Assembly: GCF_030540775.2 (NCBI RefSeq)
Contig: NZ_CP141266.1
Location: 979,001-1,043,000, forward strand
DNA from: Flavivirga abyssicola
Lineage (GTDB): Bacteria > Bacteroidota > Bacteroidia > Flavobacteriales > Flavobacteriaceae
Length of the DNA stretch: 64,000 nucleotides
Direction of reading: 5' to 3'
Shown here: piece after piece, positions 17,931-42,886 of the stretch
How positions within the stretch are numbered: the first letter of the stretch is position 1
How the letters are laid out: every line of letters begins with the position of its first letter
The notes under the pieces: model-generated
Told to the model about the DNA's origin: nothing
The model's input: only the letters and a program-made list of their open reading frames with translations
Databases searched by the model: none
Translations under genes and position numbers: made by a program

Positions 17931-18848
17931 ATGGCAAAAAATTACATTCACGACGATACTTTTTTAGGAAGATGGATTGCAGGAGAGCTTTCTAAAGATG
18001 AGCTTAAAGCATTTGAGCAATCTGAAGCTTTTAAGCAATTTGAAATTATTAACAGGGAGTCACAACTTCTTGTTGGTCCTAATGTTGACACAGAAGCAGC
18101 ATTACTAATAGTAAAGCAAAAACTGCAAACCAGCTCAAAAACGTCAAAAGTTAAGCAATTGTGGTACTCTATAGCAGTTGCAGCTGTTTTAATAATAAGC
18201 TTGGGACTGTACTTAACTTCAAACAAAACGTATACCACAGCTATTGGAGAAAAACAGACCATAACATTGGCCGATGGCTCTGTAATTAACCTAAATGCTA
18301 ACTCAAGCTTATCTCATAAACGTTTTTTTTGGTTAAATAATAAGACTGTTAAATTAACTGGCGAAGCCTATTTTAAAATTAAAAAGAAAGGTCCCTTTGT
18401 TGTAAACACTTCAAAAGGTGATATTAATGTTTTAGGCACAGAATTTAATGTTAAAGACAGAACCCAATTTGAAATAAAATGTTATGAGGGTAAAATACGC
18501 TTTACAAAACTAAATAATATAGATACTACCAAGGTTTTTACACTAACTAAAGGTTCGCAAATTCTTTTAGATCATAATACTATAAAAGAACAAACTTTTA
18601 AAGAAGATACACCTGATTGGAAAACTGGTATTTCTAAATTTACAGATCAACCACTTTCTATCGTTCTGGAAGAGTTAACTTATCTTTACCCTATCACTTT
18701 CAATATAAACACCATAGATACTAAACGTTTATTTTCGGGTAGTTTTACACATAATAATCTTGAAAATGCATTGCAAACGACTTTAATTCCTATGGGCATA
18801 ACATATCAAAAAGCAAAAGATAGTCATGTTATTATTTTATCTAAATAA
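17931..18848 (+). CDS. FecR-family anti-sigma factor
   Basis: 305 residues. The cytoplasmic N-terminus (about 1-75, FLGRWIAGELSKDEL) should bind the sigma factor. One membrane helix follows at about 78-96. The periplasmic FecR domain (about 105-215) shows the typical TLADGSVINLNANSSLSH, LTGEAYFKI and VLGTEFNV blocks. The C-terminal DUF4974/STN-like part (about 235-305) has FSGSFTHNNLENALQ. It would receive the signal from the receptor's N-terminal domain. It begins 47 bp after the sigma gene and ends 3 bp before the receptor gene. Confidence 0.94.
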   Translation: MAKNYIHDDTFLGRWIAGELSKDELKAFEQSEAFKQFEIINRESQLLVGPNVDTEAALLIVKQKLQTSSKTSKVKQLWYSIAVAAVLIISLGLYLTSNKTYTTAIGEKQTITLADGSVINLNANSSLSHKRFFWLNNKTVKLTGEAYFKIKKKGPFVVNTSKGDINVLGTEFNVKDRTQFEIKCYEGKIRFTKLNNIDTTKVFTLTKGSQILLDHNTIKEQTFKEDTPDWKTGISKFTDQPLSIVLEELTYLYPITFNINTIDTKRLFSGSFTHNNLENALQTTLIPMGITYQKAKDSHVIILSK

Positions 18849-18851
18849 AGA

Positions 18852-21499: not shown

Positions 21500-21541
21500 T
21501 AGTAGCGGGAACTGGACTCGAACCAGTGACCTTCGGGTTAT
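21500..21541 (-). repeat. 42-bp copy of the 3' part of tRNA-fMet: probable attachment site
   Basis: Bases 21500-21541 are identical to 42811-42852, the 3' end of the intact tRNA-fMet gene, in the same orientation (T-arm, variable loop, 3' half of the anticodon arm). Identity stops abruptly at 21542, inside what would be the anticodon. A lone tRNA 3' fragment of this kind is what remains at the distal end of an element that integrated into a tRNA gene. The intact gene lies at the other end of the proposed island, in the correct polarity. Confidence 0.85.
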
Positions 21542-28747: not shown

Positions 28748-30223
28748 TTATTGGTGAGAAATATTAATTTGGATATTTTCTTTTTTAATAAAATCGTATA
28801 AAGTTAATTTTCTCAATTCATAATATAGTTCCCAATACTCCCTTAGGTTTTCATAATAGTTATAAATAGCAATATCCTTTTCGTTTTGAGCTATTATCAA
28901 ATCTGTTATAGATACTTTTCCAATCACAAATCTTCTTTTGGTCGCACTATATCTTTTTAATGATATTTCAGACGCTTTTTTTGTTATTCTAACCGATAAC
29001 TCTATTTGTTGCCACTCTAAGTATTTTAGGCTTAGCTCTCTTTTTACTGACATTAGTTCTTGTTCATTTATACTCTTTATGAGATCTAAATTTGCAATGG
29101 CTATTTTACGCTCTGATTTTCTTTTCCCCCATGAAAATATTGGTGCGGAAAAAGTAAAAGAAAAGTTCTGTTGAACAAGTAAACCTGAATATGCTTCACT
29201 CAAAAGTTCATCTTGTTGAGTCAATCCAAAATTGCCAGTAATTCCTATTTTGAAACCATCACTTTTTGTTTTAGCGACATTTTGTTCAGCCTCTATTACT
29301 TTTCTGTTGTGTTCTATTAATAATTTTCTGTTTTCGAGTGCTTTTTCGAATAATTGCATAGAATCTATTTTTACAAATATCAAATTTTCTGGAATTAATA
29401 ATTCAAGTTTTTCATCTCCTTTAATACCCAATTCGTCCAGGAATGATTGTTTAGTTAGTTTTAATTCATTCTTAGATACGATTAGTTCTTTTTCAGCATT
29501 CAACAAGCTTAGCTCGGATTGTAATAAATCATTTTCATATAACTTACCAAGATTAAATCGGCCTTTTGAAATATTATATATAGTATCTTGATTAGCCTTG
29601 TTATTCGATGCGTTTTCAGATTTTATTTTTGCTAATAAAAAATCAAAAAACTTAGATGTAGCCTGTAAAGATATTTCCTCTAATTCTTCAATCAGTTCTC
29701 TTTTTGATTCTTCAAAAATTAGAGGTTGTATTTTTTTCTGCCATTTATAAGGATTATAAAATATATTCTCTTGAAAGTAGCCTATCGTTAAGGGCGTAGA
29801 TGAATATGTATTAAAAGTCGGATTAGAAAGAATATCAATTCTATTCAAAGATGATGACACCCTAAATTCTCCTCCAGTAAATGAAACTATTTGATTAACA
29901 TCCAAAGATAAAGACGAGAAAGCTTGATTTTGCTCTATAAATAGATCTGTTCCGTCATCAACAGTAATTCTATTTATTGACCTTTGGTAATTTGGTAAAA
30001 TTCCATTGATACTTAAAGATGGAAGAAAACCTGATTTGTAAGATTGATATTCCCAATAATTAACTTCTGAGTTATTTTTTGCTGTTAGATAATTTATAGA
30101 TTCATTTTTAGCAAGTTCAACTGCATCATCTAAAGATAATGTTATTGTTTTAGATATATCCCCTTGAGAAAATACTGATGTGAGTACACATCCACACAGC
30201 ATTGATAAAATAATACTTCTCAT
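28748..30223 (-). CDS. TolC-family outer membrane efflux protein
   Basis: 491 residues with a signal peptide (MRSIILSMLCGCVLTSVFSQ). The long amphipathic helices of the OEP fold are clear: about 165-260 (ESKRELIEELEEISLQATSK ... NAEKELIVSK) and 385-470 (INEQELMSVKRELSLKYLEW ... YENLREYWELYYEL), interrupted by beta segments. It would form the outer membrane channel of a tripartite exporter. Last gene of the minus-strand locus, 5 bp after the second RND gene, so co-transcribed with it. Substrate is inferred from context (the small peptides). Confidence 0.9.
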   Translation of the reverse strand: MRSIILSMLCGCVLTSVFSQGDISKTITLSLDDAVELAKNESINYLTAKNNSEVNYWEYQSYKSGFLPSLSINGILPNYQRSINRITVDDGTDLFIEQNQAFSSLSLDVNQIVSFTGGEFRVSSSLNRIDILSNPTFNTYSSTPLTIGYFQENIFYNPYKWQKKIQPLIFEESKRELIEELEEISLQATSKFFDFLLAKIKSENASNNKANQDTIYNISKGRFNLGKLYENDLLQSELSLLNAEKELIVSKNELKLTKQSFLDELGIKGDEKLELLIPENLIFVKIDSMQLFEKALENRKLLIEHNRKVIEAEQNVAKTKSDGFKIGITGNFGLTQQDELLSEAYSGLLVQQNFSFTFSAPIFSWGKRKSERKIAIANLDLIKSINEQELMSVKRELSLKYLEWQQIELSVRITKKASEISLKRYSATKRRFVIGKVSITDLIIAQNEKDIAIYNYYENLREYWELYYELRKLTLYDFIKKENIQINISHQ

Positions 30224-30228
30224 TATAT

Positions 30229-33165
30229 TTAATGTTTAATTAGAATCCAATAAATCATTGGAACGATATATAAACTAACAAATGTTCCAATAATCATAGA
30301 TACAATAACAACCAATGATAAAGGCCTTTGCAAATCAGCTCCTATTCCAAAAGCGAGAAGAATAGGAACCATAGCTAAAATAGTTGTGAAACTAGTCATT
30401 AAAATTGCATTTAACCTTCTTTGACCCGCAATATGTATAGCTTCTATAAGCGGTATATCATTTTTCCTTTTCAATTTATTAATGGTATCTATTTTTAATA
30501 TGGAATCATTAACAACTATTCCTAGCATTATAATCATTCCAATCATTGACATAATATTTAATGAGACATTTATTAAACTCATTATTATTATTGTTCCAGC
30601 AATTGTAATTGGGATTTCACAAAGAATTATTATTGGTTGTAATAATGATTCAAACTGAGCAGCTAATACAAAATATAATAATAGAACTACAATAATCATT
30701 ATCATTATTAATTCTGACATAAATGCTTTCTTTTCAAAGAATGCTCCATCAAATTCTATTTCATTATTAATTTTTGTTTTTACATAATTCATCAATTCCT
30801 CTTTTTGGTCATATGCTATTGTAACTGGAATATAGTTCGCATCAGAATCAGAATGTATTATTTCAAAGCTCATACTCTGATTTACAGAAATCAAACTAGA
30901 AATTGGAATTTTTACTTTATCCCTATTTAAGATGTAAGATGTATTTATAATAGTAAAAAAATCTTTATTCATTTTTTTTATGACTATCGGGATATATTCA
31001 TTTGTACTTTTCAATATACTAACTTTAGAAGATTTGAACAACATCTTTAATTCACTAATTAAGAGATCATTATCAACATTATATATAGTCAACTTTTTTA
31101 AATCGATACTTAAGTTGATTATTTTTTTCTGATGTTCTATGCCAATTTTTATATCAGAAAAATTATTCTCTAAATCTTTTATTATATTTTGAATATTTGC
31201 AGAATGTTTTAATGGAATTTTTAAGAAAAAATATGTTTTATTATTTGAAAATATTTGCTCAAATAAATTATCAGGATCCTTTACTGTATAAATCGCATTA
31301 GGATATTTAAAATCTAAATAAGAACAAATCTCAGTTTTTAGAATTTCAGATTCTCTATGCGAATTTGAATTAATGTAAAATTTAACATCATTAATTAGGT
31401 CTTGGTGTTTTGACAATAAAAAGTCTTGCTCTCCTATATAAGTATTAGTATTATTTGCATACTTTCCGATGTCAAGAGCTCTTCTTTTATTTTCCTGAAT
31501 TCCAATATTTTCATTCCAATTTACAATTAAGTTGAAGTCATTATAACTAATTTTAGGGATTTTTTCCTTTTTTATATCTATTGCCATGAATATTCCAAAA
31601 AAAATGACACCTAAAAGACCTATTAGAATAAGTTTTTTTCTTTTGAAAAAGAAATTGAATGATTTAGAATAAAGTGCAGTTATATAAGTTTTATTAGGTT
31701 TGTCTTTTATCTTTATTCTAAAGGCCACATATAATGTTGGTAGCAGTAAAATAGAAACTAAATAAGATATAGTTAGACTTATAATGATCGCAAGTGCTTG
31801 ATCGAAAAAGAGTATTCCTGAAATCCCACTTAAGTATATTAATGGAATAAAAACCGCACATGTTGTTAATATGGAAGACAATAAAGGCCTTAAAATTTCG
31901 TAAATTCCTTTATTACATGATTCTATTATTGAGTATCCTTTTATTCTATATTGAGAGATATTATCAATAATAATGATTGAGTTATCAATCATCATTCCTA
32001 TACCAATAATAAGTCCAGATAATGAAACTATATTAATAGATATATTAATTATATACAAAAAGAGAAAACTAATTATCAATGAAAAAGGGATTACTAAAGC
32101 AATAAGCAATGATATTTTGTAATTTCTTATAAATAAGTAAACCATTAATATTGCTAATAATGCTCCAGTGATTAAACTATTTTTAAGGTTATTAATTGAA
32201 ATATTCAGTAATTTTGATTGATCTTGACTAATTGAATACACTAAATCAGTATTATTTTTATTTATCTGATCAAGATATGTTATTACTTCTCTTTTGACAT
32301 TTTCGACCTTAGCATCTGTTTTACTTACTATTGATAAGCCTATAGATTCCCTGCCATTACTAAAATAATAACCTTTACGCTCTTTTGGAGTCAATAAAAC
32401 GTCTGCGATATCTTTTATCTGAATACGAGTATTATTTGATTCTATATATAGATTTTTTATGTCAGAAATAGTTTTTAACGAAGGCTCAAACAAAATGTCA
32501 TACACATAATGTCCATTTTTTATTTTAAAGCTCCCTAATTGTGTATTATTATTTTTTATTACTTGTTCAATTTCATTAATCGCTATATTTAATTTATTTG
32601 TTTTTAGCGTGATAGATATTTCAGGTGAAACTGTACCTGTAATATCTATATAAGCAATTGATTCATTCTGTTCTAATCGTTTTCTAACTGTATTTTTTAT
32701 ATAATTAGAAAAGTTTATTTGAGATTGATTGTCAGGATACGGAATATTTACATAAAATAATGGTACATCTGAAGGATTGAATTTAATCAATTTTGGTCGA
32801 TTAATTTCCTTTGGAAGAATGTTTAAAATTCTATCAATTTTTTCATTTACTTCAATAAAAGCATAATCAATGTCAGTTCCATATTCAAAAGTTAAATCTA
32901 TTAATGCTTTTCCATTAAATGTTTTACTTTCTATCTCATTTAAATTAGATACCTGCAATAGTTGTCTTCTAATTGGTTTTACAACTAACTTCTCTAATTC
33001 TTTAGATGAATAATTAGGCTGTTCAATTTGAATTTTCAGGTATGGGATACCAATTTCTGGCATCAATGATACAGGTATTAAATTTAGAGATGAAATGCCT
33101 AAAAGCATAAATGCAAAGAATGTCATGAAAACAGCTATAGGACGCTTTACTAAAAACTTAATCAA
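30229..33165 (-). CDS. RND transporter subunit (second of a pair)
   Basis: 978 residues with the AcrB-type layout: TM1 (about 10-28), a periplasmic half (about 30-325), TM2-TM6 (about 325-480), a second periplasmic half, and TM8-TM12. The TM4 motif is GIGMMIDNSIIIIDN, keeping one acidic residue of the proton relay where AcrB has two. The TM10 motif is GIVVNDSILKID, without the lysine of AcrB. It is a proton-driven inner membrane pump subunit. It differs strongly from the preceding RND gene (3 bp apart), so the pump is probably a heteromer, as known for MdtBC. AT-rich codon use. Confidence 0.92.
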   Translation of the reverse strand: MIKFLVKRPIAVFMTFFAFMLLGISSLNLIPVSLMPEIGIPYLKIQIEQPNYSSKELEKLVVKPIRRQLLQVSNLNEIESKTFNGKALIDLTFEYGTDIDYAFIEVNEKIDRILNILPKEINRPKLIKFNPSDVPLFYVNIPYPDNQSQINFSNYIKNTVRKRLEQNESIAYIDITGTVSPEISITLKTNKLNIAINEIEQVIKNNNTQLGSFKIKNGHYVYDILFEPSLKTISDIKNLYIESNNTRIQIKDIADVLLTPKERKGYYFSNGRESIGLSIVSKTDAKVENVKREVITYLDQINKNNTDLVYSISQDQSKLLNISINNLKNSLITGALLAILMVYLFIRNYKISLLIALVIPFSLIISFLFLYIINISINIVSLSGLIIGIGMMIDNSIIIIDNISQYRIKGYSIIESCNKGIYEILRPLLSSILTTCAVFIPLIYLSGISGILFFDQALAIIISLTISYLVSILLLPTLYVAFRIKIKDKPNKTYITALYSKSFNFFFKRKKLILIGLLGVIFFGIFMAIDIKKEKIPKISYNDFNLIVNWNENIGIQENKRRALDIGKYANNTNTYIGEQDFLLSKHQDLINDVKFYINSNSHRESEILKTEICSYLDFKYPNAIYTVKDPDNLFEQIFSNNKTYFFLKIPLKHSANIQNIIKDLENNFSDIKIGIEHQKKIINLSIDLKKLTIYNVDNDLLISELKMLFKSSKVSILKSTNEYIPIVIKKMNKDFFTIINTSYILNRDKVKIPISSLISVNQSMSFEIIHSDSDANYIPVTIAYDQKEELMNYVKTKINNEIEFDGAFFEKKAFMSELIMIMIIVVLLLYFVLAAQFESLLQPIIILCEIPITIAGTIIIMSLINVSLNIMSMIGMIIMLGIVVNDSILKIDTINKLKRKNDIPLIEAIHIAGQRRLNAILMTSFTTILAMVPILLAFGIGADLQRPLSLVVIVSMIIGTFVSLYIVPMIYWILIKH

Positions 33166-33168
33166 GAT

Positions 33169-36100
33169 TTATGGTTTTAATTTTAAAGTTAACGGCAAAA
33201 CAAATAATATAACAATAACAGAAAATAAGAGCCCCCCAATATTTCCATAGGCAAAAGATGTCCAAAAGAAATCATTCCCTTTAACAATTACAAAAGGAAG
33301 CAATCCTAAAATAGTTGAAAAAATAGTAAGTAAAATAGGAATGATTTTAGAGTTAAAAGCTTTTAAATATCCAGACAAACTTGGTATATTTCTATTATTA
33401 TATTGATTTATGATATATATCGATGAATTAACAACAATCCCGCTTAGCATTATAAAAGAAGCTAACCCACCTTGATCAAAAGGAATATCAAACATACTAA
33501 ATGTTAGGAAGACACCTATATATGAAGTTGGAATTGTTAAAATAACAGAAATGGGCTGCGACAACGATTCAAATAATATCGCACAAATAAAATAAATTAT
33601 AAATAATATTATTAACGAAATTTTTAATATTAATAGGCTGTCTTTTTCATTTACATAATCATCATCTGGATGCATAGACCTGTATCCAACAGGAAGTCGC
33701 ACATTTATTTTTTGGACTAAATCTTTAAGCACAATTTTACTATAATCATAAGTTCCGGCAAAACTATAATCAAGAAATATTTCATATTCATTATTCTTCC
33801 TAACTACATTATTGAAAATATTTTGCTTTTCTATATTTATGATTTGATCTAACGAATAATTTGTAGAATCTAACTTCATTACCTGATTTTTTAAGCCACA
33901 ATTCGTCAAAAGATTTTCTCTTCCTACTAATACAATTGGAATAGTATTAAATGTAAATATTTCGGCTTCATTACCTGAATTCCATTTTACCTCATTCAAT
34001 AACTCTGAAGTACTTATACCTAATTTAGGTGCTGTATTATTTTTTCGAAAATTTAAAGCATATTCATACTTATCTCTTAATATCCAAGATTTTTCACTAT
34101 TTATTTTTACGTTATTTATACTAGGGTGCTTTAGTAGTATTTCGTTTTTCACAAAAGAGGAAAAGACTAATAGTTGATCTAGATTATATCCTTTCATTTT
34201 AATTGTAGCATCGGATACTAAATTAGCACAATTACTAAATGGTTGTCCAACACCAGATATAGATGAATCAATACCACCAATTTGTATTGCTATTGACTCT
34301 AACTTACCTTTCAACCTAAATGGAGCATCCCCATTTTCAAACTCTTCCTTAAAGAAGATTTTTATTGATCCATTATTCACATCATAAATTTCTGAATGAA
34401 ACATTTCTATTCCATTATTTTTTTTTAAGAAGTCTTCAAAAATTGATATTGCATTATCTAATTGCTCTATTGTCGCTCCTTCAGGGTTGAAGAGACTAAT
34501 CTTCAATGACATACGCTTAGGGCTATTAATAAATGATCTCTTCTCTGTAATCTTTATAAAAGAATGTAATGAGCCTCCTAAATATTTAAAAGCAGGAGAA
34601 ATTTTGTTTTTATAAAAGCTACTTTTGAGTATACTATTGATATTTTTATCCAACGCAGAATTTCCATTGACCTCTTTTGGAAGCAGAAACAGAGGTAAGC
34701 CAAATAATAATACAAAAAATATAAATACATATTTTTTCCTTTTCAGAAACACTTTTAACACATCATAATAAAGCTTATTAAAGTATATTATTTTCCTTTT
34801 TCTTTTGTAATTTATTTTTTTTATTCTACTTGAAAATTTCAATTTTTCACTAAGTGAAGGTATTAGGAATAAAGCAATAAAAAGTGATGTTATTAAATTA
34901 ACAATAATTACGAAAGAAAAATCATACAAATAAAACTGATATTCTTTCTTTATAAAGAAGATTATAGATAGTGAACCTATAGTGGTAAGTGTAGCTGCAA
35001 AAATTGAAATGAATACTTTTCTATTCTTATGATGTAATAAATGATCTATCATTATGATAGAGTTATCTATAATAATTCCTAAAGAAATTGTTAAGCCTGC
35101 AAAAGAGTACAGGTGTAAGTCTAATGAGAATATATAATAAAAGATTACAGCTATTAAAAGATTTAGCAGTAAAGAGATAAAAATAAGAAAAACATATCTA
35201 AAGTTTCTACTAATCAGGATTACAAACAGAAATAAGATTATTATTGAAAAAATGACTCTATATGTTATTTTTATAAGTTCCTCCTTTAATTTCAAAGTGG
35301 CATCATACAATGTATTAATTACCATTCCTTCTTCATAAAAAGAAGCATTCATCTTATTAATAACTTGGTTTATTTCTTTTATAAGATAAAGTTGGTTTTT
35401 ATCTTTTTCAGATTCAATATTAATAGAAATAGCATTATTACCATTAAACCTTTTGTAACCCTGTACATTCTGCTTTTCTAATTTAATTGTTACAATATCT
35501 CTTAAATAAATAATAGTATTATTTTCAGTGCGTATTGGTGTTTTTAAAATTTTATCTTCAATAGATTCACTTAGATCACAGTTAATCTCTACAGATACTT
35601 CATTTCCATTATACATTGTAACACCAACATTTTCATTCTTTAATGAAAAAATTATTGCCCTCTTAATTGTTTGTATATTTATATTATGGTTTGTAACTTT
35701 TATGCCATCATATAATATTACATATTTGTATTTAGGAACTCCTACCAGCTCAACTTTATTGATGCCTTTAATTTTGGCTATTCTTGGTTTTATAAATTCT
35801 GTAGCTTTCTCATAAAGAGTTTTTGTTGATTTTTCACTATTTAAAGACAGTGTAATTAGTGTCTCTGAGCTTTCATTATCAATTCCATGCCTTTTAATAA
35901 TAGGATATGACACTTCTTTAGGAAGGTTTGAATATATCTGTCTTAGTTTAGAAGAAACATATAAGACACTTTTATCGAGATTAACTTTATCTGTAAACTC
36001 TAGTTTAACCTTTCCTTGGCTTTTAGAAGATGAAGAACTAATATTTATTAATCCTGGTAAAGTAGATAATGCTTGCTCAATTTTATTAGTAACAGTATTT

Positions 36101-36276
36101 TCTAATATTCTTGGATTTGCATCAGGAAAAGTAAAACTTATTGTAATTACTGGAATATTTTGTTTTGGTTTTAATCTAATGGACAATAATTTTATACAGA
36201 AAATTCCTATAATTCCTAGTAACACAAAAATTATAATTTTTGTAAACGAAGATATTATTTCACGATCCGAATTCAT
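33169..36276 (-). CDS. RND transporter subunit (first of a pair)
   Basis: 1035 residues, same AcrB-type architecture with two periplasmic halves. The TM4 motif is SLGIIIDNSIIMIDH; the region equivalent to TM10 reads LSGIVVNSSIYIINQY, with no charged residue at the relay position. If the proton path needs TM10, this subunit may be less active than its partner and the other subunit may carry the drive, as in heteromeric RND pumps. It starts 1 bp after the adaptor's stop. Visibly low GC, unlike the gld block. Substrate unknown; position suggests peptide export. Confidence 0.92.
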   Translation of the reverse strand: MNSDREIISSFTKIIIFVLLGIIGIFCIKLLSIRLKPKQNIPVITISFTFPDANPRILENTVTNKIEQALSTLPGLINISSSSSKSQGKVKLEFTDKVNLDKSVLYVSSKLRQIYSNLPKEVSYPIIKRHGIDNESSETLITLSLNSEKSTKTLYEKATEFIKPRIAKIKGINKVELVGVPKYKYVILYDGIKVTNHNINIQTIKRAIIFSLKNENVGVTMYNGNEVSVEINCDLSESIEDKILKTPIRTENNTIIYLRDIVTIKLEKQNVQGYKRFNGNNAISINIESEKDKNQLYLIKEINQVINKMNASFYEEGMVINTLYDATLKLKEELIKITYRVIFSIIILFLFVILISRNFRYVFLIFISLLLNLLIAVIFYYIFSLDLHLYSFAGLTISLGIIIDNSIIMIDHLLHHKNRKVFISIFAATLTTIGSLSIIFFIKKEYQFYLYDFSFVIIVNLITSLFIALFLIPSLSEKLKFSSRIKKINYKRKRKIIYFNKLYYDVLKVFLKRKKYVFIFFVLLFGLPLFLLPKEVNGNSALDKNINSILKSSFYKNKISPAFKYLGGSLHSFIKITEKRSFINSPKRMSLKISLFNPEGATIEQLDNAISIFEDFLKKNNGIEMFHSEIYDVNNGSIKIFFKEEFENGDAPFRLKGKLESIAIQIGGIDSSISGVGQPFSNCANLVSDATIKMKGYNLDQLLVFSSFVKNEILLKHPSINNVKINSEKSWILRDKYEYALNFRKNNTAPKLGISTSELLNEVKWNSGNEAEIFTFNTIPIVLVGRENLLTNCGLKNQVMKLDSTNYSLDQIINIEKQNIFNNVVRKNNEYEIFLDYSFAGTYDYSKIVLKDLVQKINVRLPVGYRSMHPDDDYVNEKDSLLILKISLIILFIIYFICAILFESLSQPISVILTIPTSYIGVFLTFSMFDIPFDQGGLASFIMLSGIVVNSSIYIINQYNNRNIPSLSGYLKAFNSKIIPILLTIFSTILGLLPFVIVKGNDFFWTSFAYGNIGGLLFSVIVILFVLPLTLKLKP

Positions 36277-36277
36277 A

Positions 36278-37330
36278 TTATTCTTCGATTATAGAAGAAT
36301 TATGGGCCAAATTGATGTTTCCCGAATATATTATTTTATCATTTTTTTTCAGACCTCTTTCTATGACAATGTAATCAGAATTTTCTAAAGAAGTTTCTAC
36401 ATAATTCCAAATAGCTTTTCCATCTTTAACAGTAAATACCACTTTTTTATTATCTCGCAACACAATACTTTTTTTAATAACAAATAATTTGTTTGGGATT
36501 ATTTTTTTTATGGTAATATTTACATTCATACCGTCTAATATTCTTTTACCAATATTTTTAAAAGCCCCTTTAACTTTAATTAATCCATTTTCATCCACTA
36601 TAGGGTTTATCTCTATAATTTCTCCATTGAATTTAATTTCAGAAAAAGTATTATTTATTTCTAGTGCTTGTCCTTTTTTTAAAAACATGAAATTTTCTTC
36701 TAATACGTTAAACTCTACATCAAAAACAGAATCATCTATAATCGTACAAAACGGTTTAGTTAAATCAGGATAGCTATACTTCTCAGCTTCTAAATTAGCA
36801 ATTACACCATTTATTGGGGCTCTTAAAGTAGTTGAAGCTAATTCAATATTTGCATCTCTTAAATTTGAAATAGAGGTATTATAATTCCCTCTATTTTTCG
36901 CCATATCTAGCGTAGTTTTGGGAATCTTTAAAGAATCTTTCAAACTTAGGTTAAAACCTATTAATATATCTTCTACATCAATCTTTGCTCTTTCCAATTG
37001 CTCTTTTGCTTTAATAACTTTGTTTCTATAAACGGTATTATTTTGGCTAGCCAATATCTGGCCTCTTTTTATATTTTGTCCGTTGATTACATTTATAGAA
37101 GCTATTTTTTCATTTAAAACAAATTTTACGTCTACTTTTTTTTTGGCATAAACCCTTCCTGTCGTTTTTAATTCTAGTTCGAAGTTTCCAAAATTTATTG
37201 AATTATATTTAACTTTTTTAGGAATATTATTAACTACTAATGCACTGTTTTCTTTAATATTTGTTTTCTTTTTTTCTTCCTTACATGAAAAAAGAATACA
37301 TAAGACAAATAGGAATTTAAAGAAAATCAT
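36278..37330 (-). CDS. RND periplasmic adaptor lipoprotein (membrane fusion protein)
   Basis: I choose the start at 37330 (MIFFKFLFVLCILFSCKEE), which gives a proper lipoprotein signal; a longer reading would overlap the preceding gene. 350 residues. The order is barrel-lipoyl (INFGNFELELKTTGRVYAK, then VINGQNIKRGQILAS), a short helical hairpin (KAKEQLERAKIDVED...), the second lipoyl half (TTLRAPINGVIANLEAEKYS) and a beta-barrel (VFDVEFNVLEENFMFLKKG). It should link the two RND subunits to the TolC-like channel. It lies 10 bp downstream of the thioredoxin-like gene. Confidence 0.9.
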   Translation of the reverse strand: MIFFKFLFVLCILFSCKEEKKKTNIKENSALVVNNIPKKVKYNSINFGNFELELKTTGRVYAKKKVDVKFVLNEKIASINVINGQNIKRGQILASQNNTVYRNKVIKAKEQLERAKIDVEDILIGFNLSLKDSLKIPKTTLDMAKNRGNYNTSISNLRDANIELASTTLRAPINGVIANLEAEKYSYPDLTKPFCTIIDDSVFDVEFNVLEENFMFLKKGQALEINNTFSEIKFNGEIIEINPIVDENGLIKVKGAFKNIGKRILDGMNVNITIKKIIPNKLFVIKKSIVLRDNKKVVFTVKDGKAIWNYVETSLENSDYIVIERGLKKNDKIIYSGNINLAHNSSIIEE

Positions 37331-37340
37331 GTTTGAGTTT

Positions 37341-37895
37341 TCAATTTTCAATTGTTGCATCATTAAATTTTTTGAGTAAAATAGGTGATCCAACTTTTAA
37401 TACTTTTTTATTTTTTAATTGAAACGAATGAAAAGCCTTATATTCTGAAAGATCATTAATTTGAACAAAACTGTCATATTCATCATAAAACACAGGATAT
37501 TTATAATGTAATACATTATTGATCATATAATCTACTTTTATTTTTTCAGATCCAGCAATAATAAATAAGGCATTTTTTTCTTCGTTTTTTAAATATTCAT
37601 CCCACAGTTTTAAATCTTGAATACAAACTGAGCAATCAGCATCTAGGTAGTTAACAAATAATAAATCCGAAATTGCTAAGAAAGAATTCAAAGTTTTATT
37701 TGTGTTTAAAGGAACCAATCCTTCAGAAAATAAAAGTTCTTTATTCTTCCATTTCTTTTGATTTTTTTTATTAATCACAGATATTTTATTATTAATTGCG
37801 TCACTTTTTTTATAATAAAATTTATAAACAAACATTGTTATCGAAGAGATTAGCAATAGAATGATTAACAAATGGTATATTTTATTTTTTTTCAT
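37341..37895 (-). CDS. Membrane-anchored thioredoxin-like protein with CSVC motif
   Basis: 184 residues. One membrane helix at about 7-26, then a periplasmic thioredoxin-like fold: strand LLFVNYLDAD followed by CSVC (residues 87-90), then a helix with DLKLWDEYL, strand ALFIIAG and a late KVLKVGSP turn. No clear cis-Pro was found, so it is a divergent member. It sits in the middle of the peptide/RND locus. The three exported peptides each carry four cysteines, so this protein may make or reshuffle their disulphides. That link is inference from position. Confidence 0.72.
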   Translation of the reverse strand: MKKNKIYHLLIILLLISSITMFVYKFYYKKSDAINNKISVINKKNQKKWKNKELLFSEGLVPLNTNKTLNSFLAISDLLFVNYLDADCSVCIQDLKLWDEYLKNEEKNALFIIAGSEKIKVDYMINNVLHYKYPVFYDEYDSFVQINDLSEYKAFHSFQLKNKKVLKVGSPILLKKFNDATIEN

Positions 37896-38087
37896 TTTAT
37901 TATATCAAGTTTAATTTAGAAATGATATTAATAACTCTTTATTGGCAAAGGGTTAAATTATATAAGATATATTTATCCTTTAAAATACTATTATGCAGAT
38001 TGGAATTGTTTCTTTAATTTTATGTACTAAAAATTATTTTCAATTTTAATAAATTCCTTATATTCTAAATTGATATAATATTTATAA

Positions 38088-39143
38088 TCAAAGGGTATAC
38101 TTGGATATTTTAGGAATTGTAGTAAACTCTATTACATATAGCTCAGAATTGTCAGAATTAATCTCGATAGAAATTGAGTCGTTTTCTAATTCCATAACAT
38201 CAATCAATTCTCCTTCCCAATTAAAAACATGAATTAATTTACCATATGCGAAAGAGCTGTCATTTCTTGTATTACCTGAAAAAAGTGCATATATGTTTTC
38301 GTTTGTAACACTAACATCAATATACCCAAATCTCGTATCTCCTCCCTGCCCCATTACAATATGCCCATTATTATCAGATAGTTCATATTTTGGTAAAAAA
38401 TCAAGTTCAGTTTTTGTTTTAATTATATCATTTCCTGACTCATCAAAAATTTCTATTAAATCGCTGTAAAGACTTCCAATAACTATTTTACTCCTATCTG
38501 GCTTAATTTTTAGGGTACCCATTAGGGATTGTTTATGTATTGATGTTGGTATTTCTTGACTAAGTTTAGGTGGTATCGAACCACTATGAATTTCTGTTTT
38601 TTTATTTATATCGTAAAAAGTTAACCTTTTTTCTTCCTCTGAAAAGTTTAGACCAACAATAACATTATTGCTTAACCAACCAACTTCATAAAAAAAAGAT
38701 TTTGAAGTGAAGAATAACTCACTTTGGATAGGCTTATAATTTTTTTTCAATATGCTATCTGTATTAAAACCTAAGTATTTATTTAATGTAGCACCAAAAA
38801 CCCATAACTTGTTATTATAAATACCTAGGGATCCATAAGGAGACAAAATTTCACCCGGTCCTTTGCCTTTAATCCCTATGCTAACAATTTTTTCATTAGA
38901 ATCTAGATTAAATACATGAATAAATTTATCCGATTTACTATCTTGAATGTATAGTAAAGAATCTTTAATTTTAAGTTTTGCTGGGTTTGCTATATTTTTT
39001 ACTTCACAATTCCAATTTTTATCTTTATTTATTTTTAATGGCTCAGTGACTTTATTTATTTTATACCATTTGGTATTTTCAGTATTACATGATTGCAAAC
39101 TACTAAAGATTAATAATGCAATTAATATTTTTGTTTTAAACAT
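38088..39143 (-). CDS. 6-bladed beta-propeller lipoprotein (BF3164/TolB-like type)
   Basis: 351 residues with a lipoprotein signal (LLIFSSLQSCNTE). The body shows the repeating propeller-blade pattern of the Bacteroidota TolB-like 6-bladed family: KLKIKDSLLYIQDSKSDKFI, IGIKGKGPGEILSPYG (the hallmark GxGPGE turn), NKLWVFGATLNK, then IHVFNWEGELI and a C-terminal LYVIEFTTIPKIS. In Bacteroidota such propellers are often found beside small exported NVEAL-type peptides, which fits here. It probably binds peptide or a partner at the outer membrane. Its first ~15 codons are duplicated at 40321-40366. Confidence 0.85.
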   Translation of the reverse strand: MFKTKILIALLIFSSLQSCNTENTKWYKINKVTEPLKINKDKNWNCEVKNIANPAKLKIKDSLLYIQDSKSDKFIHVFNLDSNEKIVSIGIKGKGPGEILSPYGSLGIYNNKLWVFGATLNKYLGFNTDSILKKNYKPIQSELFFTSKSFFYEVGWLSNNVIVGLNFSEEEKRLTFYDINKKTEIHSGSIPPKLSQEIPTSIHKQSLMGTLKIKPDRSKIVIGSLYSDLIEIFDESGNDIIKTKTELDFLPKYELSDNNGHIVMGQGGDTRFGYIDVSVTNENIYALFSGNTRNDSSFAYGKLIHVFNWEGELIDVMELENDSISIEINSDNSELYVIEFTTIPKISKYTL

Positions 39144-39160
39144 AAGTAAGAAAATTTAAA

Positions 39161-39191
39161 AAAAGCTATTTAATTTTTTTAAATAGCTTTT
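39161..39191 (-). terminator. Hairpin between peptide 1 and the propeller gene (attenuator-like)
   Basis: A perfect 13-bp stem (AAAAGCTATTTAA 39161-39173 with TTAAATAGCTTTT 39179-39191) and a 5-base loop lies between the stop of peptide 1 and the start of the propeller gene. Reading on the minus strand, an AT-rich tail follows. It would let most transcripts end after the peptides and a fraction continue into the transport genes. Confidence 0.7.
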
Positions 39192-39221
39192 ACAAAATAA
39201 CATTTAATATTAGTTATAATA

Positions 39222-39458
39222 TCAACCGCCTGCGCCACCAGAACCACCACTGCTTGAATTACATCGTTTCCCATCATTTCTCAACCAGGCATTAATTACA
39301 ACAGTACCATCATCTGCAAAACATATTCCAGTACCTGGGCAACAAAAGGCTCCTCCAGCCAAGGCTTCATTTAAGCTAATTTCGTTATTCACATTAGAAT
39401 TGAGCATTAATGTTCCTGTAAACATAAGAACAGAAACTCCTAAAAAAAGTTTTTTCAT
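39222..39458 (-). CDS. Small exported Cys/Gly-rich peptide 1 (NVEAL-like)
   Basis: 78 residues. Hydrophobic signal (KKLFLGVSVLMFTGTLML), a short polar stretch, then SLNEALAGG. ALA just before GG fits a signal peptidase I site and the stretch resembles the NVEAL motif of Bacteroidota exported peptides. The predicted mature part has CC-x5-C, a DDGTVV segment, an NAWLRNDGKRC stretch and the Gly-rich tail GSGGAGG. Leader identical to peptide 3; mature part differs at 8 residues. Role as signal, toxin or surface peptide is not known. Confidence 0.82.
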   Translation of the reverse strand: MKKLFLGVSVLMFTGTLMLNSNVNNEISLNEALAGGAFCCPGTGICFADDGTVVINAWLRNDGKRCNSSSGGSGGAGG

Positions 39459-39498
39459 ATTTAAAGTTTATTTAAAAGGTTAATATTGAAGTTTATTA

Positions 39499-39732
39499 TT
39501 ACCCACCAGCACCACCAGAACCACCAGAACCTGCATCACATGGCCTTCCATCACTTCTCCACCAATGATTATTATGAACATGACCATTACCAGGAATACA
39601 CACACCTGAACCAGGACAACAAGTACCACCGGCTAATACCTCATTAAGATTTATTTCACTGTCTTCATATTGAAAACTGAACATTATACTAAAGGCAAAA
39701 CACCCTAAAGCGATTAAAAATACTTTTTTCAT
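39499..39732 (-). CDS. Small exported Cys/Gly-rich peptide 2 (NVEAL-like)
   Basis: 77 residues. It is the divergent member of the set: signal KKVFLIALGCFAFSIMF, then INLNEVLAGG, then TCCPGSGVCIPGNGHVHNNH and WWRSDGRPC, ending in the same tail GSGGSGGAGG. The four cysteines, the W/R-x-DG-x-PC block and the tail are conserved with peptides 1 and 3, whereas leader and centre differ. It lies 40 bp upstream of peptide 1 and 218 bp downstream of the signal peptidase remnant. So it is not a recent copy but a third lineage of the family. Confidence 0.82.
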   Translation of the reverse strand: MKKVFLIALGCFAFSIMFSFQYEDSEINLNEVLAGGTCCPGSGVCIPGNGHVHNNHWWRSDGRPCDAGSGGSGGAGG

Positions 39733-39741
39733 ATATAATTG

Positions 39742-40173
39742 TTTAAAAGGTTAATATTAAAATTTTAGTAATCACCTCTATCATCATAGCTGAACATTAG
39801 GAAGACATAATTTGGTTATTTCTTTTTTACAAGATAATTGCATAAATAAAGTAAATACTAAAAAGGCTTTTAGTATTAAAACAACCTTTAATTTATTTAC
39901 TAATATAAGAAAAAACCTTTATTCTCTAATGTGGTTTTCCCACAATAATACTAGAAAAAACCATAAACTAAATAATAGTCAATAAAAAACATTGCTAATA
40001 GAAAATTATTTAACAAAAAATTTAACAATAGTAAATGCTTGTAAACTATTTTGCTCTTTTTAAAATTTAAATGCGAGTTTTCCTTGAATACTATTTTGTG
40101 AAACAAATCCAATTGATCTTGAATCAGATGAATAATGTCGGTTATCCCCATCACAAAGAAATAATCATCTTTA
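39742..40173. repeat. Duplication block B, copy 1
   Basis: Nearly identical to 40696-41115 (offset about 954). It covers the region upstream of peptide 2, the hairpin at 39854-39877 and the 3' end of the signal peptidase remnant. Differences seen: a 13-base stretch present only here (AAAAATTTAACA area near 40016), one A in a run near 39880, and one C fewer in the C-run at 40146-40149. Confidence 0.85.
39854..39877. terminator. Hairpin downstream of the signal peptidase remnant
   Basis: A perfect 10-bp stem, AATACTAAAA (39854-39863) with TTTTAGTATT (39868-39877), and a 4-base loop. Its twin sits at 40808-40831 below the intact signal peptidase gene. It probably ends the lepB transcript, so the peptide genes should have their own promoter in the 120-180 bp that follow. 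Confidence 0.65.
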
Positions 40174-40320
40174 GAAGTATATTTCACTAATTTCTCTAAA
40201 TTGATGTAAATTTCACCTCTACCAATAGTTACGTTTTTTCCCGTTTCAAGCTCAATAATTTCCTTGTATAACCAAATAGATTCTAGATTAAAAGTCATAA
40301 TAAGTCCCTTTCTGGGAATA
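40060..40320 (-). pseudogene. Truncated, frameshifted signal peptidase I remnant
   Basis: From 40320 the minus strand encodes IPRKGLIMTFNLESIWLYK ... DDYFFVMG, aligned with the C-terminal ~85 residues of the intact signal peptidase at 41001-42050 (IPKEGVSITLDLKSIYLYK ... DDYFFVMG). In the remnant the C-run has four C's where the intact gene has five, which throws the box E region (DNRHYSSDSRS) out of frame. The upstream three quarters, including catalytic Ser and Lys, are absent. It is joined directly to a stub of the propeller gene, the scar of the tandem duplication. Confidence 0.88.
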
Positions 40321-40385
40321 CAAACTACTAAAGATTAATAATGCAATTAATATTTTTGTTTTAAACATAAGTAAGAAAATTTAAA

Positions 40386-40416
40386 AAAAGCTATTTAATT
40401 TTTTTAAATAGCTTTT
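40386..40416 (-). terminator. Copy of the 13-bp hairpin, downstream of peptide 3
   Basis: Same stem and loop as 39161-39191, conserved without change. Here it separates peptide 3 from the dead propeller stub, so it would act as the peptide 3 terminator. Confidence 0.7.
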
Positions 40417-40446
40417 ACAAAATAACATTTAATATTAGTTATAATA

Positions 40447-40683
40447 TCAACCGCCTGCGCCACCAGAACCACCACTGCCTGAATTACATGGTTTCCCATC
40501 ATTTCTCCACCAGGCATTAGTTACAACAGTACCATCATCTGCATAACATATTCCAGAACCTGGGCAACAAGTGCCTCCTCCGGCCAAGGCTTCATTTAAG
40601 CTAATTTCGTTATTCACATTAGAATTGAGCATTAATGTTCCTGTAAACATAAGAACAGAAACTCCTAAAAAAAGTTTTTTCAT
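40447..40683 (-). CDS. Small exported Cys/Gly-rich peptide 3 (NVEAL-like)
   Basis: 78 residues. The signal and pro-part are identical to peptide 1 up to SLNEALAGG. The mature part then reads GTCCPGSGICYADDGTVV, NAWWRNDGKPC and the tail GSGGSGGAGG. It keeps four cysteines like the other two. Relative to peptide 1 there are 10 base changes, of which 9 change the amino acid, all confined to the pro-part end and core; leader and flanks are unchanged. First peptide gene after the signal peptidase gene. Confidence 0.82.
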   Translation of the reverse strand: MKKLFLGVSVLMFTGTLMLNSNVNNEISLNEALAGGGTCCPGSGICYADDGTVVTNAWWRNDGKPCNSGSGGSGGAGG

Positions 40684-41000
40684 ATTTAAAGTTTATTTAA
40701 AAGGTTAATATTAAAATTTTAGTAATCACCTCTATCATCATAGCTGAACATTAGGAAGACATAATTTGGTTATTTCTTTTTTACAAGATAATTGCACAAA
40801 TAAAGTAAATACTAAAAAGGCTTTTAGTATTAAACAACCTTTAATTTATTTACTAATATAAGAAAAAACCTTTATTCTCTAATGTGGTTTTCCCACAATA
40901 ATACTAGAAAAAACCATAAACTAAATGATAGTCAATAAAAAACATTGCTAATAGAAAATTATTTAACAATAGTAAATGTTTGTAAACTATTTTGCTCTTT
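40684..41000. other. 317-bp gap upstream of peptide 3 (mostly block B copy 2)
   Basis: The sequence from 40696 is the second copy of block B. It holds the hairpin at 40808-40831 and must contain the peptide 3 promoter, since that hairpin follows the signal peptidase gene. No canonical TAnnTTTG box was found by eye. Conservation of the whole gap with 39742-40060 suggests function or simply recent copying. Confidence 0.55.
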
Positions 41001-41115
41001 TTAAAATTTAAATGCGAGTTTTCCTTGAATACTATTTTGTGAAACAAATCCAATTGATCTTGAATCAGATGAATAATGTCGGTTATCCCCCATCACAAAG
41101 AAATAATCATCTTTA
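40696..41115. repeat. Duplication block B, copy 2
   Basis: Copy of 39742-40173, including the 3' end of the intact signal peptidase gene. This is the copy with the intact reading frame. Confidence 0.85.
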
Positions 41116-42050
41116 AAAGAGTACTTTGTTAACTTTTCTTTATTGATGTGAATTTCGTTTATGTCAATATTTATCTTTTTTCCCGTTTCAAATTCAATTA
41201 TATCTTTATACAAGTAAATAGATTTTAGATCAAGAGTTATGCTAACTCCTTCTTTAGGAATGGTTACAGATCCATAATTATCTCTATTCCAATCAAAAAT
41301 TTTCTCTTTTGGAAAAATATGATCAACCTTTTTTTTAGGAAAATGAATGGTTCTTTCAATTTTATCTTCAAAATTTGAATTTTCATATTCAATATTTGAG
41401 AGTGTGAATGTGTTATCTTTAAATTCGACTGCTTTATAATTGTACTCAAAGACATAGTTTGGTTTTTCTTCCAAGAAACTATCATTAATAAATACTTTGC
41501 TATTAACTATTTTTAGCGTTTCTCCAGGCAATCCTATTATTCTTTTTATGAGTTTTTTATGTTTTATTGGTCTTTCAAATACAATAATGTCATTTCTTCT
41601 TATATCATCAAACCCTTTTAATCTTACATTTTGGGGATTAATTTTTTTTTGTTTTTCATTTGTTTTATTAAAGAGATTGCCAAAAGGAATATCACTTAAC
41701 TTATTTGGAACTTTGGGACCATATTCCAATTTATTTACAACAACAATATCTCCTTTGGATAATGTCCTCTCCATAGAACTTGATGGAATAAAATAGATTT
41801 CAAATAAAAAAACACGGCAAAAAAGTGCGACGAAAATAATAGAAAAAATAGCATAAAAGTACTTTAACACAATAAATAAATCTTTTGATAGCCTTTTTTT
41901 CAAAAATCTTGAAAACATTTGCAATGTTATTGTATCAATTAAAAAAACTAATAATAAAGATACTATTAAAAGCTTAGACCATAAAAAGAATATTATGGCT
42001 AATAACATAAATAAATAAAATAAAATAAGTTTTAAATATTTAATAAACAT
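41001..42050 (-). CDS. lepB: Signal peptidase I (S26), dedicated copy in the peptide locus
   Basis: 349 residues. Three hydrophobic segments in the first 85 residues anchor it in the inner membrane. The catalytic serine is in IPSSSMERTL (Ser92 before Met), the general-base lysine in LIKRIIGLPGE (Lys169) and box E is MGDNRHYSSDSRS near the end. All features of an active S26 enzyme are present. It has a longer, AT-rich insert between boxes than short enzymes, as in Bacteroidota. Leading gene of the locus, so it likely cleaves the nearby peptides at ALA-GG. The housekeeping copy is not in this window. Confidence 0.9.
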   Translation of the reverse strand: MFIKYLKLILFYLFMLLAIIFFLWSKLLIVSLLLVFLIDTITLQMFSRFLKKRLSKDLFIVLKYFYAIFSIIFVALFCRVFLFEIYFIPSSSMERTLSKGDIVVVNKLEYGPKVPNKLSDIPFGNLFNKTNEKQKKINPQNVRLKGFDDIRRNDIIVFERPIKHKKLIKRIIGLPGETLKIVNSKVFINDSFLEEKPNYVFEYNYKAVEFKDNTFTLSNIEYENSNFEDKIERTIHFPKKKVDHIFPKEKIFDWNRDNYGSVTIPKEGVSITLDLKSIYLYKDIIEFETGKKINIDINEIHINKEKLTKYSFKDDYFFVMGDNRHYSSDSRSIGFVSQNSIQGKLAFKF

Positions 42051-42806: not shown

Positions 42807-42813
42807 TTTTTAG

Positions 42814-42886
<73 letters not shown>

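Follow-up and report, generated by a model that had tools for sequence, protein, structure and literature searches.

A signal peptidase, small Cys-containing peptides and a two-subunit RND pump encoded together in Bacteroidota: a candidate pathway for peptide maturation and export

Heat-stable enterotoxin II of Escherichia coli, a disulphide-bonded peptide, is exported from the periplasm through MacAB–TolC, and other small secreted peptides with leaders are handled by C39 peptidase–ABC exporters. Within the resistance–nodulation–division (RND) family, the MdtB2C heterotrimer and MuxABC are described as heteromeric pumps in extracts of two papers (PMC7015380, PMC4462101); according to one of these extracts, the labour in MdtBC is divided, one subunit binding the substrate and the other coupling protons (PMC4462101). 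The subject of the present analysis is a locus at positions 28748–42050 of a 64,000-nucleotide stretch of the Flavivirga abyssicola genome, referred to here as the window (G000:C1:979001–1043000 of a 4.68-Mb single-contig genome), in which an S26 signal peptidase and three small peptides are encoded together with a propeller lipoprotein, a thioredoxin-like protein and a complete tripartite RND pump. We consider it likely that this locus is one instance of a Bacteroidota-wide pathway maturing and exporting small Cys-containing peptides.

The pump resembles MdtABC–TolC and MuxABC in having two distinct, adjacent RND subunits, termed here RNDa and RNDb, one adaptor and a TolC-type channel, and MdtB (9lyq) is the nearest solved structure both for RNDb and for a profile of 18 RNDa sequences. 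It differs in that the relationship is distant, the Lys of transmembrane segment (TM) 10 is replaced by Asn, and the genes are linked to peptides and a signal peptidase. MacAB–TolC is likewise a tripartite pump taking a disulphide-bonded peptide from the periplasm to the medium, but it is of the ABC type, is not dedicated, and has neither a private signal peptidase nor a paired propeller. Unlike C39 systems, the locus has no C39 peptidase or ABC exporter, its leaders are signal sequences and an S26 gene adjoins. The peptides recall the NVEALA family (PF14055), whose members have a signal, a polar spacer, a motif ending in ALA, a variable Cys tail, a downstream propeller and RNDa in the same genome. 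The window peptides differ in missing the Pfam model (no match at E up to 1, and none in the whole genome of origin), in ending in a Gly/Ser tail and in having the motif LNEALAGG or LNEVLAGG.

On the minus strand, the order of transcription is S26, the three peptides, the TolB-like propeller, a membrane-anchored CxxC protein, the adaptor (also called MFP), RNDa, RNDb and the TolC-type channel. This one-strand order had been proposed in an earlier sequence-only reading, and all ten genes are confirmed at the coordinates in Table 1. Pump, adaptor and outer-membrane channel, the parts of a tripartite RND exporter, are co-encoded (PF00873 twice, TIGR01730 and PF02321), and the gaps between the MFP, RNDa, RNDb and TolC genes are 1, 3 and 5 nt, so that these genes are nearly contiguous. 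The adaptor probably starts at ATG 37330, which would make it a lipoprotein, rather than at TTG 37393. Other particulars of the same reading stand equally well. The Cys- and Gly-rich tail that it attributed to all three peptides is present in each as CCPG.G.C and SGGSGGAGG; the thioredoxin-like membrane protein has a modelled thioredoxin fold and an invariant CxxC; the propeller lipoprotein matches PF15869 and is modelled as a propeller; and the "own" signal peptidase is indeed the second one of the genome, with its catalytic residues kept. The three peptides and the CxxC protein have no Pfam or NCBIfam match above cut-off, and none of the ten proteins matches an anti-phage defence family of PADLOC-DB (E up to 0.001).

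The S26 protein contains PSSSM from residue 89, KR from 169 and GDNRHYSSDSR from 321, that is, a Ser–Lys dyad and the GDN..S.DSR box. Ser92 and Lys169, which we take to be the catalytic residues from the motifs of LepB, are conserved in 47 of 49 (with a gap in the other two) and 49 of 49 aligned distinct S26 proteins from the loci described below. The single other S26 gene of the genome lies at 618.6 kb in a 531-amino-acid frame, in addition to a remnant in the window. A housekeeping LepB identity was considered for the S26 gene at Bacteroides loci and rejected, since the gene turned out to lie within the peptide locus. In the CxxC protein, Cys88 and Cys91 are the sole invariant columns in an alignment of 16 sequences. 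Its model has a thioredoxin fold (predicted local distance difference test, pLDDT, 86), and its top matches in the PDB are ResA-type thiol–disulphide oxidoreductases; on the modelled fold together with the CxxC, it is ResA/TlpA-like, with a predicted redox role. A search of viral contigs for this protein gave no match. The propeller lipoprotein was modelled at a pLDDT of 85.8 and matched propellers in the PDB.

In AcrB and MdtB, an Asp in TM4 and a Lys in TM10 form the proton relay. One TM4 Asp is invariant in both subunits described here, and the position of the TM10 Lys is occupied by Asn in all 107 RNDa sequences and in 67 of the 69 RNDb sequences, this column having been located by aligning RNDb to MdtB and by eye in RNDa; neither subunit has the complete TM4 Asp–TM10 Lys pair of the AcrB/MdtBC type. 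In their alignments, RNDa has fixed Asp404 and Asn950 (both 107/107) and nearly fixed Asp411 (100/107) and His412 (101/107), and RNDb has Asp394 (69/69) and an NDSILK motif with Asp887 and Lys891 (68/69). By analogy with MdtBC, it is our guess from these two signatures that one subunit may bind the substrate and the other couple protons.

The mature parts of the peptides vary too fast for a peptide profile, and an RND subunit was therefore used as the anchor for finding related loci. Two groups of genomes, whose families we infer, from contigs that they have in common with named loci (L066/L109; L112/L120), to be Flavobacteriaceae (397 genomes) and Bacteroidaceae (161 genomes), were searched; absences rest on a limited number of candidates scored per genome, two for RNDa in the former group, four for RNDa in the latter and up to 17 for the leader profile described below. 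RNDa orthologues are present in 17 of the 397 Flavobacteriaceae genomes, namely that of the window and 16 others at 33–39% identity, two further genomes (G100 and G301, 25–26% identity) having been left out. The 16 other genomes gave 17 neighbourhoods (G131 has two) totalling 320 kb. Families recurring in them are S26, propellers of the TolB_like, DUF5128 and DUF4221 types, DUF1573-like and CxxC lipoproteins, and a transglutaminase-like protein (TG) of about 650 residues. Strict peptides, defined as small proteins that have a signal and an AxA followed by two or more Cys, number 20 in these 320 kb, at 12 of the 17 loci, versus one in 800 kb of controls (p 2e-10); the controls were 40 stretches of the genome of the window and 11 of the others, placed at round coordinates rather than drawn randomly. 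Ten of the relatives' peptides were scanned against Pfam and NCBIfam with no match above cut-off, a beta-defensin hit, at 17.7 bits against a cut-off of 21, being disregarded.

At least 552 relatives of RNDa occur in GTDB genomes. The best 80 of these, analysed as named loci, come from Flavobacteriia, Prolixibacteraceae, Bacteroides, Phocaeicola, Parabacteroides, Odoribacter and others. Over all 80, RNDb is found in 58, TolC in 54, MFP in 47, DUF5128 in 31, S26 in 26 and TolB in 18. In the 42 loci of at least 20 kb, the figures are RNDb 37, TolC 36, MFP 32, DUF5128 24, S26 20 and TolB 15, the rarer parts being DUF1573 (6), the CxxC lipoprotein (5) and the DUF4221 propeller (5). The 40 control stretches contained a single MFP and no other searched part. 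Where RNDa and RNDb fall in one stretch (n = 65), 63 pairs share a strand and 55 are at most 2 kb apart. On the genes alone, two distinct subunits lying side by side in 37 of 42 long loci resemble the arrangement behind an MdtBC-type mixed trimer. A correlation of 0.985 between RNDa and RNDb distances was rejected as evidence of a complex, the value for RNDa and TolC being equally high (0.98).

The leaders are better conserved than what follows them. A leader profile of 46 positions (A3), built from 17 peptides, matches 83 of the 397 genomes at E 0.01; the weaker matches are mostly partial, many of them in frames of long proteins. Full-length matches (E ≤4e-6) occur in 10 genomes, eight of which have RNDa, a count that is partly circular and that leaves out all weaker matches together with a partial one (positions 7–35) in the RNDa-negative genome G173. 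Genome G153, the one of the eight RNDa-positive genomes that did not contribute to the leader model, has further peptides on other contigs with propellers, S26 or MFP–RNDb–TolC.

The peptides some 6 and 8 kb from RNDa at two of the named loci, L065 and L127, read SNVEALA and ANVEALA, and co-occurrence of NVEALA and RNDa was therefore tested in the Bacteroidaceae. The NVEALA model was that of Pfam with its curated cut-off and the RNDa model was built from Flavobacteriaceae only (E 1e-100); since the two are of independent origin, the test is not circular. Of 161 genomes, 21 have NVEALA, 38 have RNDa and 19 have both (Fisher's test, p 2e-12), so that RNDa is present in 19 of 21 genomes with NVEALA versus 19 of 140 without. 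At E 1e-3, NVEALA is found in 29 genomes, of which 26 have RNDa, and among 30 genera 12 have NVEALA, 13 have RNDa and 11 share them (p 1.5e-5). The sequence-only reading had named as its refutation a peptide family occurring mostly without the RND and signal peptidase genes; for the RND part the idea survives, with the 19 of 21 Bacteroidaceae genomes and the 8 of 10, partly circular, in Flavobacteriaceae. In 13 of the 26 double-positive genomes, a copy of NVEALA lies within 50 kb of RNDa on the same contig. Over the class, NVEALA was found in 4 of 295 sampled genomes. Nine of 16 named RNDa genomes are NVEALA-positive: P. vulgatus, B. congonensis, B. acidifaciens, B. cutis, P. intestinalis, B. 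pyogenes, P. faecalis, Bacteroides sp. ET71 and Capnocytophaga canis.

Loci in the linked stretches encode NVEALA peptides, propellers, DUF1573, TG, S26, a Wzy_C protein with TPR repeats (Wzy_C-TPR), the adaptor, RNDb, TolC and RNDa. The arrangement is seen clearly in Phocaeicola vulgatus ATCC 8482 (L282, which L100 continues), where two peptides score above the NVEALA cut-off, and further operons were read in G790 (L248, L249), G769 (L264), G728 (L266) and others. In 29 Bacteroidaceae-side stretches, some overlapping and two of them from Capnocytophaga canis, we counted the TolB propeller in 21, TG, S26, Wzy_C-TPR and MFP in 19 each, DUF5128 and RNDb in 17 each, TolC in 16, RNDa in 14, DUF1573 in 12, DUF4221 in 10 and two CxxC types in 3 and 1; RNDa or NVEALA was the ground for choosing the stretches, and these two are therefore not independent findings. 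In 20 control stretches from the same genomes, likewise placed at round coordinates, the parts were limited to a weak Wzy, a single DUF1573 and one strict peptide. In G790, 15 of the 20 NVEALA matches of the genome fall within about 32 kb (C1:375681–407317; L247, L248), mostly followed by propellers. A separate P. vulgatus stretch, L290 (genome 470000–489900), lies apart from the main locus and encodes another NVEALA-like peptide (9469–9729) together with a propeller, S26, an RNDb-like pump and an adaptor.

The pairing of peptide and propeller is close. On the Bacteroidaceae side, a same-strand propeller is the next non-peptide gene downstream of 42 of 51 peptides, compared with a base rate of 82 of 318 genes; this count excludes two duplicate places and, of 53 peptides, the two located at stretch ends. 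In the Flavobacteriaceae and the window together, the figure is 15 of 19 peptides against 34 of 294 genes, the overlapping stretches L249 and L253 being left out. At L259 and at L296/L297, continued by L039/L035, peptides sit between the pump genes themselves.

Two larger proteins accompany many of the relatives. TG, in which Cys248 and His284 are invariant in eight aligned sequences (e.g. L034:6753–8744 and L282:8988–10904), is on sequence grounds a candidate peptide-processing enzyme of the relatives, with no counterpart in the window locus. In a chosen set of 43 genomes it occurs in 8 of 17 with RNDa, the match in the genome of the window being partial, versus 2 of 26 others. Wzy_C-TPR (PF04932, E <1e-170) is present in 9 of 10 leader-positive genomes versus 0 of 33 others (6.5e-34 in the genome of the window). 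Both tallies are partly circular, four of the genomes having fed each model. Wzy_C-TPR, of the O-antigen ligase family, accompanies the long-leader form at L201, L202, L203, L208, L100, L101 and many Bacteroidaceae-side loci, and the peptides might be glycosylated by it or be its targets in another way. In the genome of the window, weak Wzy_C and TG matches adjoin one another at L295 with no other part of the system. The locus seems to exist in two or more forms, one with long leaders, Wzy_C-TPR and often TG, the other lean, as in the window. The earlier statement that the locus has neither a modification enzyme nor a C39–ABC exporter holds for the ten genes of the window locus; as regards modification enzymes it needs amending for the relatives, many of which carry these candidate modifiers. 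Similarly, the notion of a candidate system is supported, but its relatives range far beyond the window locus.

A third kind of protein, in which two or three predicted TM segments surround the middle part and a domain occupies the C terminus, is found in 12 of the 29 Bacteroidaceae-side stretches versus none of 20 matched control stretches. Examples near NVEALA peptides are L282:14190–15188, L283:14069–15130, L284:740–1888 and 18283–19335, and L285:15179–16204. Two were scanned with Pfam: the L282 protein has Trans_reg_C and L247:12257–13258 has none. Their sequences make it possible that these proteins are envelope-sensing regulators. A profile from nine of them finds one in 17 Flavobacteriaceae neighbourhoods and two in the 80 named loci.

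The window peptides share MKK, a hydrophobic core, LNE.LAGG, the CCPG.G.C motif with a further Cys, and the SGGSGGAGG tail, giving a plan of signal sequence, polar spacer ending in LNE(A/V)LAGG and Cys/Gly tail. The DNA separating peptides 1 and 2 contains a degenerate tandem copy made up of the 3' part of an S26 gene and the 5' end of a propeller gene. About 0.58 kb (39739–40319 versus 40693–41261) repeats the S26 3' part and the following DNA at 76–99%, and 300 nt (39091–39390 versus 40316–40615) repeat the peptide–propeller junction at 96%. We therefore conclude that a unit running from the end of S26 through a peptide to the start of the propeller was duplicated, after which the spare enzyme ends decayed and an extra peptide was left. 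The peptide set has, on this sequence comparison, been enlarged by duplication.

Just inside the far one of two 42-nt repeats that bracket the locus, a DUF4062 gene and a helix-turn-helix gene (narrowly under the cut-off) accompany a RadC fragment (2.8e-14) and the C-terminal remnant of an integrase, whose PF00589 match (E 0.03) is also under the cut-off. From the flanking repeats and mobility remnants, we conclude that the system is the largest cargo of a 21.3-kb island at tRNA-Met whose mobility genes have decayed. The GC fraction is 0.24–0.29 at 28 to 44 kb versus 0.31–0.38 elsewhere in the window. The same island encodes an M4 thermolysin-like protease with a Por secretion tail (24242–26761). 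A distant RND operon of another genus also adjoins this 42-nt tRNA-Met end (L049 near 13803, L050 near 6230), perhaps the same integration site.

Table 1. Genes, gene remnants and island ends in the window (window coordinates)
Feature	Position	Strand	Basis or remark
TolC-family outer-membrane channel	28748–30223	-	PF02321 (OEP) 4.1e-25
RNDb, 978 aa	30229–33165	-	PF00873 (ACR_tran) 7.3e-153
RNDa, 1035 aa, divergent	33169–36276	-	PF00873 (ACR_tran) 5.8e-92
RND periplasmic adaptor (MFP), probable lipoprotein	36278–37330	-	TIGR01730 1.7e-42, above cut-off; HlyD_D23 1.6e-10; listed open reading frame from TTG 37393
Membrane-anchored thioredoxin-fold protein with CSVC (Cys88, Cys91)	37341–37895	-	Alignment and model
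TolB-like beta-propeller lipoprotein, 351 aa	38088–39143	-	PF15869 4.9e-29, 102 bits versus cut-off 29.2
Peptide 3, 78 aa	39222–39458	-	90% identity with peptide 1
Peptide 2, 77 aa	39499–39732	-	Plan as in peptide 1
Remnant of second S26 gene (3' part)	39951–40298	-	Repeats D3–D6; PF10502 fragment at genome 1019066–1019152
Remnant of second propeller gene (5' end)	40316–40368	-	Repeat D1, 96% over 300 nt with 39091–39390
Peptide 1, 78 aa	40447–40683	-	Predicted cleavage after ALA; 4 Cys in mature part; GGSGGAGG tail
S26 signal peptidase I, 349 aa	41001–42050	-	PF10502 (Peptidase_S26) 4.4e-36; TIGR02227 above cut-off
42-nt exact direct repeat of tRNA-Met 3' part, far end of island	21500–21541		
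42-nt exact direct repeat, near end of island	42811–42852		Overlaps tRNA-Met gene (42813–42886, -)

The gene content, active-site residues, recurrent neighbourhood, genome-level co-occurrence and peptide–propeller pairing observed here suggest, by association, that the peptides are the substrates of the other components. A peptide would enter the Sec pathway by its signal sequence, which in relatives is often lengthened by a polar stretch ending in AxA (ALA or ANA, and NVEALA in Bacteroidaceae). The locus S26 enzyme would cleave after the AxA, releasing the peptide into the periplasm, where the thioredoxin-fold CxxC protein, joined in relatives by DUF1573 and TG, may adjust it, most simply at its disulphides. 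The MdtBC-like pump of two RND subunits, with adaptor and TolC, would then move it from the periplasm to the outside. RND pumps take their substrates from the periplasm or the outer leaflet, as established for AcrB, which fits a peptide first freed by a signal peptidase. Most peptide genes are followed directly by that of a propeller lipoprotein, which would bind the peptide as a chaperone, receptor or immunity protein.

Several observations weigh against this pathway. The filter for strict peptides recognises just two of the three in the window, finds none at 5 of the 17 Flavobacteriaceae loci and gives 29 in 1409 kb, at 18 of the 80 named loci, where S26 is likewise limited to 26; a profile of the window peptides (A1) matches the genome of the window alone among the 397. 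Seven of the eight RNDa-positive genomes in the leader test supplied peptides to its model. NVEALA is present at cut-off and RNDa absent in G729 and G736, and, conversely, 19 of 38 RNDa genomes lack NVEALA at cut-off, 12 of 38 lack it at E 1e-3, and it is absent from seven of the 16 named RNDa genomes. In 12 of the 26 double-positive genomes the two are on separate contigs, and G816 has them on one contig, separated by about 960 kb. Finally, the genus-level test is the sole count that takes kinship into account, the others treating genomes or loci as independent. Two further points, namely genomes G328 and G018, which have a leader peptide, DUF4221 propeller, CxxC lipoprotein, S26 and Wzy_C-TPR with no RNDa orthologue, and L044, where no searched part was found beside RNDa, bear also on an alternative considered below.

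As to purpose, intercellular antagonism or signalling is favoured, and each is compatible with export. For antagonism, which we place somewhat short of an even chance, the peptides would be bacteriocin-like toxins and each propeller lipoprotein a cognate immunity protein. The tight pairing, the conserved leader ahead of a variable mature part, and the duplication and island position in the window are consistent with this, but neither the window peptides nor those of ten relatives match a known family above cut-off, tandem peptide arrays share one propeller at L259, and the immunity role is purely inferential. Signalling, which we regard as a more tentative possibility, would make the peptides pheromones sensed by the propellers or by the transmembrane proteins of Bacteroidaceae. 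The occurrence of these proteins at peptide loci and not in controls, the Trans_reg_C domain in one of two scanned and the many divergent peptides per genome agree with it; against it, no such regulator was noticed in the window, very few were found in Flavobacteriaceae and the named loci, and up to 20 peptides per genome are many for pheromones.

An altogether different explanation is that the RND set pumps small molecules or lipids, the peptides and propellers being a co-regulated but separate module of the periplasm or cell surface, whose peptides would serve in the envelope or as stress sensors and would not be pumped. RND pumps usually export drugs, metals or lipids, the peptide–propeller–S26 cassette exists without RNDa in G328 and G018, and RNDa stands without the searched cassette genes at L044. 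This explanation appears unlikely to us, however, in view of the recurrence of the NVEALA linkage in a second family, the peptides lying between pump genes at several loci and the second signal peptidase in the genome of the window. A standard double-glycine bacteriocin locus with a C39 peptidase–ABC exporter, or a cluster for ribosomally synthesised and post-translationally modified peptides (RiPPs), is very improbable, for although a GG follows the leader in the window peptides, the element common to the leaders is AxA, not GG, and none of the ten locus genes (the rest of the genome was not searched) encodes a C39 peptidase, an ABC exporter or a modifying enzyme of the RiPP type.

Maturation and export of peptides remain the preferred reading. 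The Pfam families of the components are already catalogued. No paper describing the system, and none on NVEAL, NVEALA or DUF4221, was found in the literature covered, which comprised PMC-licensed full texts and no preprints. Tables of the iron response in Bacteroides thetaiotaomicron list BT0662 (O-antigen ligase family), BT0664 (6-bladed propeller), BT0667 (lepB) and BT0669 (RND adaptor), and the extract of that paper makes no mention of a system (PMC10434189); these genes look like members of the same type of cluster. For the fuller proposition of an undescribed peptide secretion system, with a private signal peptidase, a heteromeric RND pump specialised for peptides and mostly propeller-paired peptides, of which gut Bacteroides would have up to about 20 for antagonism or signalling, we see the chances as evenly balanced. 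There is a fair chance that the system merits a class of its own beyond the heteromeric tripartite RND exporters.

The reading can be tested directly in laboratory Bacteroides. If it is true, human gut commensals secrete sets of peptides for which we found no report in the literature covered, and an RND pump, of a kind normally studied for drug efflux, is a dedicated exporter of gene-encoded peptides. Overall, the analysis proposes a function for the NVEALA peptides, for the TolB-like, DUF5128 and DUF4221 propellers, and for a distinct RND pair of gut and marine Bacteroidota.

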